From positions 1-64,000 of the forward strand of contig NZ_JACAAX010000003.1 of assembly GCF_013377085.1 (NCBI RefSeq): a DNA stretch of 64,000 nt, in the 5' to 3' direction. The stretch is from Rhodoplanes sp. (GTDB taxonomy: Bacteria > Pseudomonadota > Alphaproteobacteria > Rhizobiales > Xanthobacteraceae). A model generated the notes under the pieces. It did no database searches and was not told the DNA's origin. It worked only from the letters and a program-made list of their open reading frames with translations. Both the position numbers and the translations under genes were made by a program. Every line of letters starts with the position of its first letter. Positions within the stretch are counted from its first letter, which is position 1. Below are positions 7,918 to 36,263 of the stretch, piece by piece.

Positions 7918-8130
7918 CGGAGAGGGATGCACAGATCTCGTTTTGTCGAGACGATCCGGTGGTGAGGCAAGGCGCGCGCCTTTCCCGCCGTCGTCATCGC
8001 TGGGCTTGACCCGGCGATCCATCGTCCTGCGACCAAGCCGTTTTTGCGAAGCTCGAGGGATGCGTGGGTCGAGCCCGCGCATGACGGCTCCCATGCATGG
8101 CAAGCGAGATGTGCATGCGGTAGCCAGCGT
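7918..8130. repeat. MITE-like element, degenerate copy
   Basis: It shares most of about 200 bases with 34257-34463, including GGATGCACAGATCTCG at its left end, the inner arms GGCTTGACCCGGCGATCCAT and GGGTCGAGCCCGCGCATGAC, and CATGCATGGCAAG near the right end. The left GGATGCACA and right TGTGCAT arms are retained, but the outermost inverted-repeat bases have decayed. Confidence 0.75.
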
Positions 8131-8386
8131 GCGGGGAGAGGCGAAACGCAGCCGCGCCGCGCCCGAGACAGCGATTCGCTGCGGTGCGGCGGCCCGTTCT
8201 GCAACCCCCACGATCATGCCGCGTGGCCCGGATCGGCGTCGCCGCGGGCCGCGGGCGGGTGTCTTCGCGACGCCGCCCGGCGCACCGCCGAATCCGCGTT
8301 TTTCGTTCCGGGGCAGGCGCTTGTCACCCGTGTTAAGCTTTCATAAATGCTTAATTCTCATTAATCATTAGGGTTAAGTTTTAGGG

Positions 8387-8401
8387 TTAAGCCCCTTTTA
8401 A
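8387..8401. promoter_or_regulatory. candidate CtrA box (TTAA-N7-TTAA)
   Basis: TTAAGCCCCTTTTAA matches the full TTAA-N7-TTAAC CtrA consensus (the next base is C). It lies in the AT-rich stretch 83 bases upstream of the outer-membrane gene at 8484. CtrA is the alphaproteobacterial cell-cycle regulator; its use here is inferred from the motif alone. Confidence 0.45.
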
Positions 8402-8483
8402 CCGTTGGTTGTCAGGATGGTCCGGCCAGTGAGTAACAAGTTGGGTCGCGTCCTCGCGCCCTGCCACACGGAAGGACGAAGTC

Positions 8484-9344
8484 ATGGCAAGCGTGAAAAT
8501 CTCAGCAGTCGCGGGGGCGGCCGTGCTCCTCTCCCTGAACGCGGCCGGCGCCGCGGACCTCCCCCTCGCACCGCCTCCGATGCCGATTCCTCAGGAGTAC
8601 TCGGGCTGGTATCTGCGCGGCGACATCGGCTTCAGCAACCAGCAGGTCAAGAGCATCGACAACGCCAACTATCATGGGGCGTCGATCACCGGGGTCAACG
8701 TCAACAACAAGAGCTTCGATGCGGCGCCGTTCTTCGGCCTCGGCGTCGGCTATCAGTTCAACAGCTGGCTGCGCTTCGATGCGACCGGCGAATATCGGGC
8801 CAATGCCAACTTCCACGGCTCCGACATCATCACCAACACCTCCTACGGGCTCCCGAGCTGGGAAAGCAACACGTTCACGGCGAGCAAGTCCGAGTGGCTG
8901 GTGATGGCCAACGCCTATGTCGACCTCGGAACGTGGTGGTGCGTGACGCCGTTCATCGGCGCCGGTATCGGTGCGTCGTACAATCGCATCAGCAACTTCC
9001 AGGACCACTCGACGTCGCTGCAGTACTATGGACCGAGCATCGGATACGCCACGGGCGTCGGTGCCGCCTTCGGCGCGGACACCGGCAAGTGGAACCTCGC
9101 CTGGGCCCTGCACGCCGGTCTCGCCTACAAGGTGACGCCCAACTTCACGGTCGAGCTCGCCTACCGCTATCTCAATCTGGGCGATGGCCTCGCGGGCGAC
9201 CTGTACACCTACACGGGCGGCAACAGCTATTATAACCCGACGGAGTTCAAGACGATCACGTCGCAGGACCTGAAGCTCGGCCTGCGTTGGATGCTGCAGC
9301 CGCCGGAGCCCGTCTATCAGGCCCCGCTGATCCGCAAGGGCTGA
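8484..9344 (+). CDS. outer membrane beta-barrel protein
   Basis: 286 residues. There is a signal peptide (about 1-24, ending NAAGAADLP), then a periplasmic proline-rich stretch and alternating amphipathic strands typical of the Omp25/31-type (OmpA-like transmembrane) family. These include GWYLRGDIGFSNQQ and FFGLGVGYQFNSWLRFDATGEYR. The C-terminal strand is DLKLGLRWML, followed by a short tail. GGAAGGA precedes the ATG at 8484. It probably sits in the outer membrane with a structural or surface role. The CtrA-type box upstream hints at cell-cycle control. Confidence 0.82.
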   Translation: MASVKISAVAGAAVLLSLNAAGAADLPLAPPPMPIPQEYSGWYLRGDIGFSNQQVKSIDNANYHGASITGVNVNNKSFDAAPFFGLGVGYQFNSWLRFDATGEYRANANFHGSDIITNTSYGLPSWESNTFTASKSEWLVMANAYVDLGTWWCVTPFIGAGIGASYNRISNFQDHSTSLQYYGPSIGYATGVGAAFGADTGKWNLAWALHAGLAYKVTPNFTVELAYRYLNLGDGLAGDLYTYTGGNSYYNPTEFKTITSQDLKLGLRWMLQPPEPVYQAPLIRKG

Positions 9345-29737: not shown

Positions 29738-30510
29738 GCCGTAATTACGGTAATTACGGTGACAGTGCACTTTATTCCTGCTTTGGTTTAGGGCCGCGTT
29801 TGGCGGGGCGCAGCTTGCGGCCGGTCGAACGCTCGACGGCGGCCAGGAACATCTCGTCGCCGAGCGGCCGGCCGATGCTCTCCGCGGACCGTAGCCGCGC
29901 GAACGCTTCGGCGTCCTCGGCCCCGGCCAGGAACGCGGCGAAATCCGGAATGCGCTCTCGAACCGGGGCCGTCGCCGTGAGGCCGTCGTCGCGGCCGGTC
30001 AGTTGCGCGCGCGTGCTCGCCCACCGCCAGTCGCGCGCCCGCGCCACCAGCCGGGCGCGCACCGGATTGAGCGCCACATAGGCGAGCGCGGCGAAGAGAT
30101 GCGCCTCGTCCAGGGCGACGGCGCCGAACCGGCCCTGCCAGAAATGGCCGGTGCGCCGGCGGCGCGCCTGGACGATGCCGGCGTAGCGCCGGTGCACCGG
30201 CGCGAGCGCCCGACGCAGCCCGTCGGCGTCGGCGGGCACCAGGATCAGATGGACGTGATTTGGCATCAGGCACCACGCCCAGATGGCGACGCCGGCCGTC
30301 CGGCAGTGCTCGGCGAGCAGGTCGCGATAGAGGGCGTAGTCGTCGTCGCCGAAGAAGGTGCGGGCGCGGCCGTTGCCACGCTGGGTGACGTGATGCGGAT
30401 GATCCGGAACGACCACGCGGGCGAGACGAGCCATGCCGCATGATCACCGAAATCCATGCTCTCGTCAATTTAGTGCACTGTCACCGTAATTCGCCGTAAT
30501 TCGCGCTATG
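29738..30510. mobile_element. RAYT transposase element with inverted repeats
   Basis: The 20-base sequence AATTACGGTGACAGTGCACT at 29752-29771 recurs as its exact reverse complement at 30472-30491. Outside it, CCGTAATTACGGT on the left matches CCGTAATTCGC on the right imperfectly. The ends thus comprise nested GTAATT arms around one tyrosine-transposase gene. This is the organisation of a mobile unit of the REP-associated type. The unit borders the SIR2-HerA island. Confidence 0.8.
29772..30434 (-). CDS. REP-associated tyrosine transposase (RAYT, Y1-type HUH)
   Basis: 220 residues. It is an HUH endonuclease of the IS200/IS605-related Y1 group. HVH in MPNHVHLILVP (residues 60-62) is the metal-binding HUH pair. 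Tyr 119 in YVALNPVRARLV is the probable nucleophile, followed by the RAYT-specific motif N-P-V-R. A basic C-terminal tail (KLRPAKRGPKPKQE) ends exactly at the inverted repeat, the stop codon abutting it. RAYTs excise or nick REP palindromes. The host window is full of palindromic repeats, although those nearest the gene are a different sequence. Confidence 0.92.
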   Translation of the reverse strand: MARLARVVVPDHPHHVTQRGNGRARTFFGDDDYALYRDLLAEHCRTAGVAIWAWCLMPNHVHLILVPADADGLRRALAPVHRRYAGIVQARRRRTGHFWQGRFGAVALDEAHLFAALAYVALNPVRARLVARARDWRWASTRAQLTGRDDGLTATAPVRERIPDFAAFLAGAEDAEAFARLRSAESIGRPLGDEMFLAAVERSTGRKLRPAKRGPKPKQE

Positions 30511-30646
30511 CTCGCTGGCAGTTAATCTGTCAGAAAGCCCGCCGGGCGCTCCGATAGGTCTTGCGGGAGGAGGTGCCGAGGCCCAAAATTCCATTCAATA
30601 ACGTGCCGATTCTTAGCGCGGATCCTTACCACTCCCGGTGCTTGGC

Positions 30647-31669
30647 ATGGAAATAGATGCCATTGCGAGGCTTGCCCAAGCTTGTTTTACAAGCGGCCCT
30701 GTCGTTGTGTTGGGTAGCGGTGCGTCAGCTCCGCACGGCCTTCCCGGTATGGATGCTCTCAAAGATTGTTTGTTGGAAGAAGTTGTCCCAGCCGGCCCGG
30801 AAGAAGAAGCCGCATGGTTGCTTGTTAGAACCGCTCTTGCCAATGGTGACCATCTTGAGCAAGCGCTCGTCGGAAAGGTGCTCCCCCACTCTTTGATCAA
30901 AAAAATAGTTGCCTCTACGTGGGCGTGCATAAATAGCAAAGATCGTACGCTTTTTTTTAGAGCGGTACAGCTACAGGAGCGGTTTCCTGTCGGCGATTTG
31001 ATGAAAGCATTGTTCCAAAGCAACCAGAAAACGGTTGATGTCGTGACGACGAATTACGATCGGGCTGCAGAATATGCATGTAATTCGATGGAAATCGTTC
31101 ATTCGGTGGGGTTTCTGCCAGGCTACATACAATCACGTGAAGGAACTGCCCCCATCTCATTCCATCGAAGCGGGAAGCCGCTGCGAACCGTCCGAATCTG
31201 GAAGGTCCATGGCTCTCTTGATTGGTTTGAACGGCCAGATGGAACGACAGTCTCAGGGCCATTTTTTGAGTTGCCTGCCTCAACTCTTGCGCCTCTAATC
31301 GTAACGCCTGGGTTTAATAAGTACGAACGAACACACGATGAGCCGTTTCGTTCGGCTATTCAAGGGGCCGACCGTGCACTTGAAGGTGCGGAAGGCTATC
31401 TTTGTGTTGGATTCGGATTCCGAGATTTTCATATCGAACCTAAGATGCTTGAGCGCTGCCGCCGGAAGAATATACCGATCGCCGTAATCGCTCGCACATT
31501 GACGGATGAAGCTAAAGCATTTCTTAAAGGGAAGGCAGGCTCGAAGTACGTTGGCTTGGAGGCGACCTCGGCCGGCTCTCGAGCCTATATCGCGGAAAGA
31601 CCGGATGGGATCGACTTGCCGGTTCGTAACCTATGGTCTCTCGATGGTTTTCTCAAACTTGTCACGTAG
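30647..31669 (+). CDS. SIR2-domain protein of a SIR2-HerA defence module
   Basis: 340 residues from the ATG at 30647 (a GTG at 30638 is an alternative). It is a SIR2_2-type NADase-like Rossmann protein. VVLGSGASAPHGLPG (residues 20-34) is the nucleotide loop, TTNYD (134-138) carries the catalytic Asn and Asp, WKVHGSLDW (185-193) contains the probable active-site His, and GFGFRDFHIEP (255-265) is the typical downstream strand. The C-terminal region is unique. The next gene is a HerA ATPase 6 bases downstream. SIR2-HerA pairs protect bacteria from phages by degrading NAD+ on infection (also called Nezha in published work). The gene is much lower in GC than its surroundings, which points to horizontal acquisition. 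Confidence 0.9.
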   Translation: MEIDAIARLAQACFTSGPVVVLGSGASAPHGLPGMDALKDCLLEEVVPAGPEEEAAWLLVRTALANGDHLEQALVGKVLPHSLIKKIVASTWACINSKDRTLFFRAVQLQERFPVGDLMKALFQSNQKTVDVVTTNYDRAAEYACNSMEIVHSVGFLPGYIQSREGTAPISFHRSGKPLRTVRIWKVHGSLDWFERPDGTTVSGPFFELPASTLAPLIVTPGFNKYERTHDEPFRSAIQGADRALEGAEGYLCVGFGFRDFHIEPKMLERCRRKNIPIAVIARTLTDEAKAFLKGKAGSKYVGLEATSAGSRAYIAERPDGIDLPVRNLWSLDGFLKLVT

Positions 31670-31675
31670 GTTAAC

Positions 31676-33424
31676 ATGTCTATATTTGACTATACAGATG
31701 ATGAGACCCTTGGCTGTGTGATCTCTGTTGATACCGCGACCGTGACTATTCGGGTCGATGCGATCGAGCGACTGAGGCGGATCCAAGTTAATCGACTGGC
31801 CGTTTTACAAAGCAGTAGGGCGGGCCAACATTTGATCGGTGTTGTGACCCGCATAACCCGTCGAGCGGATGATGAGCGCGAAGTTCAAGCGAGCTCTATT
31901 GGCCCGGATGAAGAAGCTCCGCCGAAAAATAATCTCGTTCGCATTACATTGATAGGAACGCTGCTCGATCGTGTTGGAATGCAAGAAAATGTCTTTCGTC
32001 GGACGCTTGAGACCGTTCCAGAAATCGACGCAAACTGTTTTTCTATGGAAGGGGGGCGCCTTACGAAGTTTATGCAAGTTATATCCAACGTCGGGGCGGG
32101 CGGACCCAGATTATCGTTGGGTGCATTTACTATCGACGAAGAAGCTGAAGCTTTTTTAAATGGAAATAAGTTATTCCAGAGACATGCAGTTATCGTTGGT
32201 AGCACAGGCTCCGGAAAATCATGGACGACCGCTCGCTTGCTCGATCAGGTAGCCCAACTTCCGCAAGCCAATGCAATTCTGTTTGATATTCATGGCGAAT
32301 ACAAGCCCTTGGATGGCGATGAGTTTCGGCACATCAGGATAGCTGGGCCTGTCGATATCGAGCGAGGGGTCGGCCTTGCGGATGGGGTTCTCCATTTGCC
32401 TTATTGGCTGCTGGGGTATGAGGCATTATTATCTTTATTCGTGGATCGCAGCGATCAAAACGCACCTAATCAAGCTATGATGATGACTCGCTGTGTTACC
32501 GATGCGAAGAAGGCAACACTTGCCGATCCGGCCCACAAAGACATCCTTGCAAATTTTACAATAGATAGCCCGGTTCCCTTCGATATAGGCTCGGTGCTGG
32601 CGGAGCTGGAACGTTTAAATAGCGAGATGGTCCAAGGTGCTCGCGGCGACAAGCAAGGGCCTTATTTCGATAAGCTGAGCCGACTGATCGCGCGATTGGA
32701 GGCGAAGCGACAGGACCGCCGTCTTGGCTTCCTGTTTCAGCCGCCAGTCGAGTGTATGGACATGGGCTGGCTGGAGAAAATTGTTCACATCCTCATCGGC
32801 GGGCGCGGCTCTCAACCAGACAGTAAGGGCGGCATCAAAATCGTTGATTTTTCTGAAGTTCCGTCGGATGTCCTGCCGCTTATGGTCAGCTTGTTAGCAA
32901 GACTTATCTTCACGACAAATCAGTGGACTGAGCTTTCAAAACGACACCCGATCGCTTTGCTTTGTGATGAGGCACATCTCTACATTCCCGAGCGCGCAAA
33001 CGCGGACAGCAGTGATGCCGTTTCTGTTCAAATCTTCGAACGGATTGCTAAGGAAGGTCGAAAATATGGTATTGGTCTTGTTGTTATAAGTCAAAGACCA
33101 GCGGAGGTTAACAGAACAGTTCTCAGCCAGTGCAATAACGTGATTGCGATGCGTTTGACAAACGGAGACGATCAAAGTGTTATTCGTAGATTATTGCCGG
33201 ACAGTCTTGGAAGCTTTGGCGATCTTTTGCCTGTACTTGATATTGGGGAGGCGCTAGTTGTGGGTGATGCGAGTTTACTACCAACGCGCGTGCGCGTCGC
33301 TGAACCTCGTAGGAAGCCCAACAGTCAGACGGTCGCATTCTGGGATTGCTGGAACGAAGATACTCCAAAGTCGGACACCCCTAACGCCGTGAAGACTTGG
33401 CGGAGGCAGAGTTTCCAAAAGTAA
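31676..33424 (+). CDS. HerA-type DNA-translocase ATPase of a SIR2-HerA module
   Basis: 582 residues. The N-terminal HAS-barrel domain (about 1-110; RVDAIERLRRIQVNRLAVLQ and GVVTRITRRADD) is followed by the RecA-like motor. Walker A is GSTGSGKS (175-182), Walker B is ALLCDEAHLYIPE near residue 425, and a Gln/Arg sensor lies in VISQRPAEVNRTVLSQCNN near residue 465. HerA forms hexameric rings and in defence modules carries the SIR2 partner. The 6-base gap after the SIR2 gene implies an operon. No NurA nuclease gene is present, unlike the archaeal HerA-NurA repair pair. GC content is low throughout. Confidence 0.9.
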   Translation: MSIFDYTDDETLGCVISVDTATVTIRVDAIERLRRIQVNRLAVLQSSRAGQHLIGVVTRITRRADDEREVQASSIGPDEEAPPKNNLVRITLIGTLLDRVGMQENVFRRTLETVPEIDANCFSMEGGRLTKFMQVISNVGAGGPRLSLGAFTIDEEAEAFLNGNKLFQRHAVIVGSTGSGKSWTTARLLDQVAQLPQANAILFDIHGEYKPLDGDEFRHIRIAGPVDIERGVGLADGVLHLPYWLLGYEALLSLFVDRSDQNAPNQAMMMTRCVTDAKKATLADPAHKDILANFTIDSPVPFDIGSVLAELERLNSEMVQGARGDKQGPYFDKLSRLIARLEAKRQDRRLGFLFQPPVECMDMGWLEKIVHILIGGRGSQPDSKGGIKIVDFSEVPSDVLPLMVSLLARLIFTTNQWTELSKRHPIALLCDEAHLYIPERANADSSDAVSVQIFERIAKEGRKYGIGLVVISQRPAEVNRTVLSQCNNVIAMRLTNGDDQSVIRRLLPDSLGSFGDLLPVLDIGEALVVGDASLLPTRVRVAEPRRKPNSQTVAFWDCWNEDTPKSDTPNAVKTWRRQSFQK

Positions 33425-33503
33425 TATGTGGAACGTTTCTGATTAAAGTCATATTGCGACCAATGATCTGGGCGCATCACCCGCGTCCGCCTGTGGCGCC
33501 GGT

Positions 33504-33860
33504 TCAGCTCCGGTCGATCTCTCCCTCCAGCGCCGCCTCGAGGGGCGGGAGCGCGCGTAAAACCGTATCCCACACGAATTGCGCCGCCACGTCCTCGTAG
33601 TCGTGACGATACACGTTGCCGGCGCCCGCCATCTGCTTCCATGCGATGTCGGGGTGGCGGGCCTTCAAGGCGTCCGGCAGGCGGCGCGAGGCTTCGGAGA
33701 TGATTTCCAGGCAGCGGGTCACGGCATAGATCGTGCGCAGGTCCTGCTTGAACGTCGCGGCCGTGAAGCCGCGCGTAAATTCGGTCGCGAGGTCGATTTG
33801 ATGCAGGATGTCGCGCAGCGCGGCTTGCGCCGATTTAGAAGGCGCCGAATTAGAAGGCAT
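33504..33860 (-). CDS. HEPN-domain protein of an MNT/HEPN toxin-antitoxin pair (HepT-like, DUF86)
   Basis: 118 residues from the ATG at 33860. It is an all-helical DUF86 protein: LRDILHQIDLATEFTRGF, TIYAVTRCLEIISEASRRLP and the C-terminal VAAQFVWDTVLRALPPLEAAL match the HepT fold. HepT toxins are RNases or are neutralised by AMP transfer to a Tyr. The segment AGAGNVYRHDYEDV (about 78-91) aligns with the active-site loop, with Arg-His-Asp-Tyr at 85-88, and the usual R-x4-H-x-Tyr spacing is not obvious. It overlaps the antitoxin gene by 11 bases and is convergent to the HerA gene, 79 bases away. Confidence 0.86.
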   Translation of the reverse strand: MPSNSAPSKSAQAALRDILHQIDLATEFTRGFTAATFKQDLRTIYAVTRCLEIISEASRRLPDALKARHPDIAWKQMAGAGNVYRHDYEDVAAQFVWDTVLRALPPLEAALEGEIDRS

Positions 33861-34146
33861 AGTGCGCGTCGGCGGTCGCGGCCGGCCCGACATGGGGCTT
33901 GAGGCTGTCGCGGTTCACCACGTCGACGGGGCCGTCGAACAGGCTGGCGATGTAATCCTTGAGGTCGACGTAATCGTAAACCGTCAGGTGCGCCTCGGGA
34001 TCGATTTCGACCATGATGTCGAGGTCGCTGCCGGGCCGGTTGTCGCCGCGCGCGACCGAGCCGAACACGGCGGCGCGCCGCACGCCGCGCGCGCGCAGAG
34101 CCGCCTCTGAATGCTTCAGGGTTTCGAGGGCATCGGCGCGGGTCAT
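33850..34146 (-). CDS. MNT-domain nucleotidyltransferase antitoxin (MntA-like)
   Basis: 98 residues from the ATG at 34146. It is a minimal nucleotidyltransferase. GSVARGDNRPGSDLDIMVEI (from residue 29) carries the G-S and D-x-D (Asp 41, Asp 43) metal-binding motif. A third acidic residue is in GPVDVVNRDSL. It is the first gene of the pair and overlaps the HEPN gene. MntA antitoxins AMPylate HepT to silence it. The pair sits beside the SIR2-HerA module, consistent with a defence island. Its GC content is that of the chromosome, so it may have arrived separately from SIR2-HerA. Confidence 0.88.
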   Translation of the reverse strand: MTRADALETLKHSEAALRARGVRRAAVFGSVARGDNRPGSDLDIMVEIDPEAHLTVYDYVDLKDYIASLFDGPVDVVNRDSLKPHVGPAATADAHYAF

Positions 34147-34256
34147 GAGACAAACATAACATGCAGCGCGCGGTTTTGGAGGTCGCACCCCGGTCGGCTC
34201 AGAGCGAATTCCGGTGATGAAGAATCGGATCCTATTTCCGTTCGTCCCCGCGAAAG

Positions 34257-34463
34257 CGCTACGGGATGCACAGATCTCGTTTTGTCGAGACCATCTGGTG
34301 GTACGGCAAAAAGAGCGCCTTCCCCACCGTCGTCATCGCCGGGCTTGACCCGGCGATCCATCATCCTGCGAACAAAGCATTTTTGCGAAAATCGATGGAT
34401 GCGCGGGTCGAGCCCGCGCATGACGCTCTCATGCATGGCAAGCCTTGTGTGCATCCCGTAGCG
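34257..34463. mobile_element. MITE-like element with 16-bp terminal inverted repeats
   Basis: CGCTACGGGATGCACA (34257-34272) and its exact reverse complement TGTGCATCCCGTAGCG (34448-34463) bound a 207-base element that encodes nothing. Inside lies a CTTGACCCGGC-type mosaic palindrome (34331-34424). A degenerate second copy is at 7918-8130. Confidence 0.8.
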
Positions 34464-34843
34464 CGAAAGCGGGGACCCAGGAGCGGCTCGACGTGTGGGA
34501 CCTGGATTCCCGCTTTCGCGGGAATGAGCGGAGGGTGGGGCGAGTCAACGGAAATGGCTCCAATTGGCGCGACCACGAGGTCCGGAATCGGTGATTTTGT
34601 CCCGGACTTACAGCCCTGCGCCCGCCATTCCGGTTCCACCAACCCCGCTCGACCAATTCCTCCCTCTCCGTCATCCCCCACTCGACCGCCCCCTCCCGAA
34701 GCGGTAAACACCCGCCGGCGGCTCGGACTCGGTCCGGGGGCTGGATTTCCTCGAAAATCCGGCGCCAAGGCGGGCCGGGCGGTTTTGGCGTGCCGCAATC
34801 TCGGCACGGCGAGGGTGCAGGGGTCCGGGACGGCACCGGCGAA

Positions 34844-34953
34844 GCCGGCAAGGCATACCGGCGAAGCCGGCAAAGCATACCGGCGAAGCCGGCAAGGCAT
34901 ACCGGCGGAGCCGGCGAGACATACCGGCGAGAGGCCGGCGAGACACACCAGCG
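34844..34953. repeat. 22-bp tandem repeat upstream of purA
   Basis: The unit GCCGGCAAGGCATACCGGCG plus two bases is repeated at 34844, 34866, 34888 and 34910. A fifth, partly decayed unit runs to about 34953. Only single-base changes separate the first three. It ends 17 bases before the purA ATG, so it would lie in the 5' leader. Confidence 0.85.
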
Positions 34954-34970
34954 AGACAAGAAGGCAGCAC

Positions 34971-36263
34971 ATGGCGAACGTCGTGGTCGTCGGCTCCCAG
35001 TGGGGCGACGAGGGGAAGGGCAAGATCGTCGATTGGCTGTCCGAGCAGGCCGACGTGGTGGTGCGGTTCCAGGGCGGCCACAATGCCGGCCACACGCTGG
35101 TGATCGACGGCAAGACCTACAAGATGTCGCTGCTGCCCTCCGGGGTGGTGCGCGGAAAGCTCTCCGTCATCGGCAACGGTGTGGTCTTGGACCCGCGCGC
35201 GCTGGTGGAGGAGATCGAGCGGCTGGCCGGGCAGGGGGTGGCGATCAGCCCCGAGACGCTGCGGATCGCGGAAAACACCTCGCTCATCCTGTCGCTGCAC
35301 CAGGAGCTCGACGCCAACCGGGAGGCGGCGGCGAGCGAAAAAGCGCGGCTCGGCACCACCAAGCGCGGCATCGGCCCGGCCTACGAGGACAAGGTGGGGC
35401 GGCGCGCCATCCGGCTGATGGACCTCGCCGACCTCGACTCGCTGCCTCCAAAAATCGAGCGGCTGCTGGTGCACCACAACGCGCTGCGGCGCGGCCTCGG
35501 ACTGCCCGAATACGACCCGAAGAATCTCTATGACGAGCTCGCCGCGGTGGCCCCGAAAGTGCTGCCCTACATGGATTCGGTGTGGGTGCTGCTCGATCAC
35601 GTGCGGCGCGAGGGAAAGCGCATCCTGTTCGAGGGCGCGCAGGGCGCGCTCCTGGACATCGACCACGGCACCTATCCGTTCGTCACCTCGTCCAACACGG
35701 TGGCGGGCCAGGCGGCCACCGGCTCCGGCATGGGGCCGTCGGCGATCGGCTATGTGCTGGGCATCTGCAAGGCCTACACGACCCGGGTCGGCGCCGGGCC
35801 GTTCCCGACCGAGCAGGACAACGAGATCGGCCGGCTGATCGGCGACCGCGGCCACGAGTTCGGCACCGTCACGGGACGCCGGCGGCGCTGCGGCTGGTTC
35901 GACGCCGTGCTGGTGCGCCAGACCGTGCGCACCAGCGGCATCCACGGGCTGGCCTTGACAAAGCTCGACATTCTGGACGGGCTCGACGAGATCCAGGTCT
36001 GCACCGGCTACCGCCTCGACGGCCGCACCATCGACTACCTGCCGGCCAGCGAGCACGCGCAGGCGCAGGTGGAGCCGATCTACGAGACCATCCCGGGGTG
36101 GAAGGACAAGACCGCGGGCGCCCGCTCGTGGGCGGAGCTGCCGGCCCAGGCGATCAAATACGTGCGGTGGATCGAGGAATTGGTCGGCTGCCCGGTCGCT
36201 CTGCTCTCGACGAGCCCGGAACGCGATGACACTATCCTGGTGCACAATCCCTTCGAAAGCTGA
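34971..36263 (+). CDS. purA: adenylosuccinate synthetase
   Basis: 430 residues, the normal length. It joins IMP and aspartate using GTP to give adenylosuccinate in AMP synthesis. [19 protein letters not shown] (residues 4-22) contains the GTP-binding P-loop variant GDEGKGK and the catalytic Asp 13. GGHNAGHT (His in NAGHT), [22 protein letters not shown] (cited as the region near 222-243) and the later TKLD GTP-specificity motif are all in place. The frame is open far upstream, but the ATG at 34971 gives the standard [15 protein letters not shown] start. AAGAAGG precedes it. It is followed after 39 bases by an unrelated membrane protein gene. Confidence 0.96.

Follow-up and report, generated by a model that had tools for sequence, protein, structure and literature searches.

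A low-GC SIR2-HerA gene pair in Rhodoplanes sp. whose HerA is nearest to that of DUF4297-HerA

Introduction

Two described systems come closest to the locus reported here. SIR2-HerA, solved from E. coli (8su9, 8sub, 8j4u) and as PsSIR2 (8w9l, 8wld) with the HerA of 8wiv, consists of a SIR2 gene followed by a HerA gene in one operon; both the E. coli system (title of 8j4u) and that of V. cholerae have been called Nezha. In V. cholerae Nezha, mutating N168 or H227, or deleting herA, abolished or reduced immunity (PMC11559045). PMC11263360 gives the pocket of DSR2 as N133/Y134/D135/H171 and describes it as conserved in the Sir2 of Sir2-HerA. In DUF4297-HerA (8XAU series, 8ziq, 9c1m), HerA is partnered by a DUF4297 nuclease; 8XAU itself is the HerA of that system (PMC11291478).

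Here we describe a gene pair within a 64,000-nucleotide stretch of Rhodoplanes sp. DNA (the window) that is very probably, judging from its sequence, relatives and predicted folds, an imported system of two genes, of the SIR2-HerA type, that acts by abortive infection. The pairing is mixed, with a SIR2 as in SIR2-HerA and a HerA nearest to DUF4297-HerA, and it is this that deserves a specialist's time. SIR2-HerA is defined by a 12:6 complex, NAD+ hydrolysis and phage defence, and the present pair is known from sequence and models.

Results

A SIR2 gene followed by a HerA gene

The pair and the DNA that holds it comprise the following features.

30638..31669, + strand: SIR2 effector, predicted NADase (ORF, Pfam SIR2_2, PADLOC PDLC04087, conserved N139/Y140/D141/H191, model fold)
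31676..33424, + strand: HerA-type ATPase/translocase, 582 aa (ORF, Pfam DUF87 and HerA_C, PADLOC PDLC04105, PDB sequence and fold matches, Walker residues)
30500..33500, no strand: low-GC patch around the pair, probably marking how far the imported DNA reaches (GC and GC3; edges approximate)

As in the characterised SIR2-HerA operons, the two genes are adjacent on the same strand, here with an intergenic gap of 6 bp. The SIR2 frame can start at GTG 30638 (343 aa) or at ATG 30647 (340 aa) and, in the 343-aa numbering, carries GSGAS at residues 26-30, TTNYD at 137-141 and KVHGSLDW at 189-196, while HerA carries a Walker A motif, GSTGSGKS (175-182), and a Walker B motif, CDEAH (430-434). A sequence-only reading of this DNA had named these motifs, the 6-base spacing and a complete SIR2_2-type protein of 340 aa, and all of them were recovered, the SIR2 protein being 340 aa long from the ATG and matching Pfam SIR2_2 at 3.6e-8. 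HerA matched Pfam DUF87 (7.9e-28) and HerA_C (4.8e-6). Its N-terminal region is presumably a HAS barrel, as that reading had it; the HerA model has beta strands across the first ~100 residues, as such a barrel would give.

In PADLOC-DB, the SIR2 protein matched PDLC04087 (E 7.6e-119) and HerA matched PDLC04105 (E 2.1e-239), with nearly the whole of protein and profile aligned in both cases, and the pair is thus already covered by PADLOC's models. Chance open reading frames are ruled out by the Pfam and PADLOC matches, which lie far beyond chance. Since PDLC04105 also matches one 8wiv-type HerA and one DUF4297-type HerA, it cannot tell HerA lineages apart. The NCBIfam equivalogs for antiphage SIR2 and HerA scored far under their cut-offs (21.3/500, 164.4/800 and 292.3/850 bits), which counts against a SIR2-HerA assignment; these models would appear to rest on other lineages.

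Conserved active sites and predicted folds

The NAD-site residues N139, Y140, D141 and H191 and the GSGxS loop are identical in 21/21 aligned SIR2 rows, so the loss of the catalytic Asn, Asp or His that the sequence-only reading had named as fatal to it did not appear. The same four residues and the loop are also identical in the 12 rows of a second alignment (A3; window, L012 and 10 viral rows, with the window and L012 common to both alignments). N168 and H227 of V. cholerae are the equivalents of the catalytic Asn and His in the window SIR2. HerA residues K181, S182, D431, E432 and H434, which belong to the Walker A and B sites, are likewise identical in 21/21 rows. Across whole proteins, the window HerA keeps 145/145 columns that are invariant among the 20 other rows and the window SIR2 keeps 33/34; the one departure, Val at position 157 where all 20 other rows have Thr, counts against an intact SIR2-HerA.

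An AlphaFold2 model built on the 12 SIR2 rows reached a mean pLDDT of 82.4 and a pTM of 0.84. When it was compared with the PDB using Foldseek, the first 36 hits were all SIR2 chains of SIR2-HerA systems, at TM 0.47-0.62 to the query (E. coli 8sub, 8su9, 8suw, 8uae, 8sxx and 8j4u; PsSIR2 8wld and 8w9l; and 8yhx, an entry titled trimeric HerA that was matched through a chain of the SIR2 family), and sirtuins ranked after these. The structural comparison that the earlier reading had proposed thus bears it out on the SIR2 side, in fold as in catalytic pocket. The solved SIR2 chains that were matched by sequence differ in being longer (381-428 aa versus 340-343 here), and similarity to them is weak, the best PDB match standing at E 3.9e-6.

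Confidence is lower for the model of HerA (pLDDT 72.1, pTM 0.63). Its first 24 Foldseek hits are HerA chains from the work on DUF4297-HerA (in 8xau and 8zis, HerA alone), and a HerA of SIR2-HerA first appears at rank 25; because rmsd values over 20 reflect poorly placed domains, this ranking serves as backing for the evidence from sequence.

SIR2 and HerA stay together in relatives

A search of 397 genomes of the order recovered HerA at an identity of at least 65% in 8, the own genome among them, and SIR2 lies immediately upstream in 8/8 of these loci (the window and L014-L020; L014 has the same scores as L012 and looks to be that locus). Queries with SIR2 gave the reciprocal picture. HerA is immediately downstream in 12/12 loci on viral contigs, two of which (L101 and L102) have identical scores. 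Matches came from 91 plasmid records; 11 of these loci were opened, and HerA directly follows SIR2 in 11/11. A HerA whose relatives lack a SIR2 partner, the other outcome that the sequence-only reading had held to be damaging, is therefore not what these genomes and viral contigs contain. On genome contigs the SIR2 query found two relatives, with HerA downstream in one. The other, L013 (Bradyrhizobium cytisi, 7980-9197), is the sole exception to the partnership and counts against the SIR2-HerA reading: no HerA match was found in its 16.9-kb locus. Its SIR2 frame enters unrelated sequence after residue ~320, and it is probably a decayed copy.

In the 19 closest pairs, the gap between the two genes lies between -4 and +13 bp when measured from longest-ORF starts. 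Pairwise identities of SIR2 and HerA correlate across 20 pairs (r 0.94; 0/5000 permutations as high), although this is not specific to partnership, since common descent alone would also yield a correlation.

The SIR2 relatives on the 91 plasmid records cover at least 80% of the SIR2 length in 77 cases, and 70 of the 91 records are typed conjugative or mobilizable. Those on viral contigs were found by alignment scans, single-sequence scans having found none, and the INPHARED phages held no SIR2 match at E 1e-5. Despite this spread over 91 plasmid records and 12 viral-contig loci, neither protein has a close solved structure.

Three further observations concern individual loci. On one viral contig (L097), genes for terminase and a major head protein lie near SIR2-HerA, which is possibly carried there by a phage or prophage as defence cargo. 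In three HerA operons with a long SIR2 (L077, L078, L080), annotation places a small KTSC-domain gene directly after HerA. A congener (L092, G001:C14) carries a different SIR2-HerA, of the 8wiv type.

HerA lineage

By sequence, the best PDB matches of the window HerA are 9c1m (238 bits), 8ziq (228) and 8xau (211), all HerA of DUF4297-HerA, followed by 8wiv (161). For comparison, the HerA beside a DUF4297 relative at L086 matches 9c1m, 8ziq and 8xau at 759, 729 and 437 bits, and the long-SIR2 HerA of L092 matches 8wiv at 584 bits.

In a midpoint-rooted tree of 46 HerA rows, the 21 HerA proteins with a short SIR2 partner, window included, form one side of a branch (100/100). A larger branch (100/98) unites them with seven DUF4297 HerA and with L090, which is partnered by another SIR2 (346 aa, PDLC04081); the 10 other long-SIR2 HerA fall outside it. 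The 8wiv-type HerA is thus separated from the window HerA, a difference from SIR2-HerA that is not a usual criterion of membership. Within the shared branch, the short-SIR2 HerA are sister to DUF4297-HerA and not nested within it. Seven rows of other HerA form a separate branch that does not include the window HerA. Kept out of the tree were 15 low-identity HerA resembling kept rows (L025-L027, L029-L035, L037, L039-L042), together with L003, L008, L011 and the viral loci; L005, L006, L007, L009, L010 and L021 gave way to longer versions of the same places (L089, L091-L094, L090). At L083, DUF4297 is present and no ORF matched HerA.

A constraint placing all SIR2-partnered HerA together, as a single origin of SIR2-HerA would require, was rejected on the 46 rows (p-AU 0.0089), also when L090 and L022 were left out of the constrained group (p 0.0099). 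After six long-branch rows were dropped, the constraint was no longer rejected (p 0.083), and support for the branch of DUF4297 and short-SIR2 HerA stood at 91/86. In the window HerA, the tail can be aligned with the C-termini of the HerA chains of DUF4297-HerA, where a hook is described, but also with 8wiv.

Given this grouping and these constraint tests, a HerA stock common to the short-SIR2 lineage and DUF4297-HerA is likely, and separate assembly of SIR2-HerA more than once is plausible but unproven. A broader statement, in which HerA is an exchangeable motor, NADase and nuclease having been swapped on one scaffold, and the name "SIR2-HerA" takes in two or more systems that were assembled separately, strikes us as evenly balanced. 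If it is true, this lineage would have its docking face and trigger in common with DUF4297-HerA and not with E. coli Nezha. If this HerA truly belongs with DUF4297-HerA, comparing the complexes would separate the parts of HerA that sense infection from those that hold the effector, and these natural pairs would make it testable whether motor or effector sets the trigger. The label SIR2-HerA (Nezha) given by the sequence-only reading accordingly fits in part: gene pair, NAD site and partnership agree with it, while HerA is closer to that of DUF4297-HerA than to those of characterised SIR2-HerA systems. Titles and abstract openings in the openly licensed literature yielded no description of the short-SIR2 sub-lineage, and the excerpt of PMC10853773 names neither Sir2 nor DUF4297.

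Base composition and import

GC content is 0.50-0.52 in the five 1-kb windows that span 30501-33500 and 0.60-0.75 in those not overlapping the pair. GC3 is 0.482 for SIR2 and 0.498 for HerA against a mean of 0.879 (sd 0.044) for 35 host-like ORFs of the window, a z of about -9 that is somewhat inflated because the host-like ORFs were chosen by their high-GC3 pattern. Profile and third codon position thus agree with the earlier impression of a GC content far below the surroundings. Among 19 carriers, this pair (GC 0.507) shows the largest difference from its flanks, 0.136 under them; the other 18 range from 0.271 to 0.634 and stay within 0.09 of their own flanks (flank lengths differ), so that a fairly recent import is suggested.

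A SIR2 search of 100 genomes, including the own, gave matches in seven, at 100% identity in the own genome and at 32% in the next best (G054). None of the five congeners searched has a close SIR2 match; G001 alone has a weak one, which is part of a different SIR2-HerA. Import, as proposed by the earlier reading, is supported by GC content, by the third codon position and by this lack of a close match in congeners. Direct repeats marking the ends of the island were sought and none was convincing. Sigma-70-like sites numbered four, against 2.7 +/- 1.4 expected from shuffles, and are not clearly above chance.

Proposed mechanism and alternative readings

By analogy with the characterised relatives, we infer that the two proteins form a complex, hydrolyse NAD+ and defend against phage by depleting it. 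HerA would be a ring-shaped DNA motor that probably controls the NADase. SIR2 subunits would form an oligomer, quiet or weakly active alone, which would bind to the HerA hexamer on its HAS side. Infection would provide a cue, perhaps in the form of DNA that HerA has engaged, and so turn the complex on; SIR2 would then hydrolyse NAD+ through N139/Y140/D141/H191, and the infected cell would halt before phage mature.

Other readings share some of this evidence. The grouping of the window HerA with those of DUF4297-HerA in sequence, tree and fold counts against a plain SIR2-HerA and would suit a pair that acts mainly by DNA translocation and degradation, with NAD+ loss secondary. We think this unlikely, as the partner is not DUF4297 but belongs to SIR2_2 and has its NAD pocket intact, family and fold searches found no nuclease domain in it, and NADase-site mutants abolish defence in the homologous V. 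cholerae system (PMC11559045). A DNA end-resection module of the HerA-NurA type, with SIR2 an unrelated neighbour, draws on the matches of HerA to HerA_C and to repair HerA models, the latter far under cut-off. This is highly improbable and we reject it: the window HerA stands apart from the seven other-HerA rows, the clustering with repair-type HerA feared by the earlier reading being absent, and no NurA match was found in the whole genome, in agreement with that reading, by a search that was positive in 7/14 control genomes. The conserved neighbour of HerA is SIR2, and 4d2i HERA, which we take to be an archaeal repair HerA, scores 88 bits against 238 for 9c1m.

There is also a small chance that the pair is a decayed or silent remnant whose defence no longer works. 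Only 147 bp separate the SIR2 ORF from the end of a repeat element that bears a transposase gene, the relative L013 is decayed, no clear promoter is seen, and SIR2 position 157 departs from a conserved column; against this, both ORFs are full length and keep the invariant columns counted above, all but that one. A working system of the SIR2-HerA kind remains the reading we prefer.

Surroundings of the pair and the purA neighbourhood

The flanks hold the following features.

29752-30491: element around a transposase gene, bounded by 25-bp inverted repeats
29772-30434, - strand: IS200-like/REP-associated transposase gene (Pfam Y1_Tnp over cut-off; NCBIfam REP_Tyr_transpos 69.5 of 80, just below)
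33504-34188, - strand: HepT-like and MntA-like genes of toxin-antitoxin type in overlapping frames (over Pfam cut-offs, below NCBIfam equivalog cut-offs)
34971-36263: purA, right of the pair

The 20-base core of the inverted repeat has 22 matches in the genome at up to two mismatches, clustered on contigs C9 and C33, and none for the reversed control. The transposase gene is unsupported as the carrier of the pair, its inverted repeats enclosing that gene only. The HepT-like and MntA-like genes were considered as a further part of the system and set aside: they lie on the opposite strand, have a host-like composition (GC3 0.81 and 0.88) and are not listed beside the pair in 11 annotated plasmid regions, whose gene tables are incomplete.

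The stretch from ~29.4 kb to purA is not common to the four congeners compared and differs in all four, so no clean empty site is available. Upstream of purA, G001 has a gene with AAA_15/AAA_21 domains, OLD-like by reading, in DNA of GC 0.40-0.50, and G002 has a gene with NACHT and Mrr_cat domains, without a PADLOC match, in DNA of GC 0.42-0.52. The stretches seen near purA in G003 (3.3 kb), G004 (2.4 kb) and G005 (2.46 kb) hold no low-GC insert. A different low-GC insert of defence type thus lies within about 1.6 kb of purA in three of six genomes of the genus (window 30500-34970; L073, L074), and as these inserts are unrelated, the region upstream of purA is a possible defence hotspot. Published accounts of a hotspot at purA were sought, and none came up. 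Just upstream of purA, at 34835-34956, the window also carries a short tandem array of a 22-bp unit.
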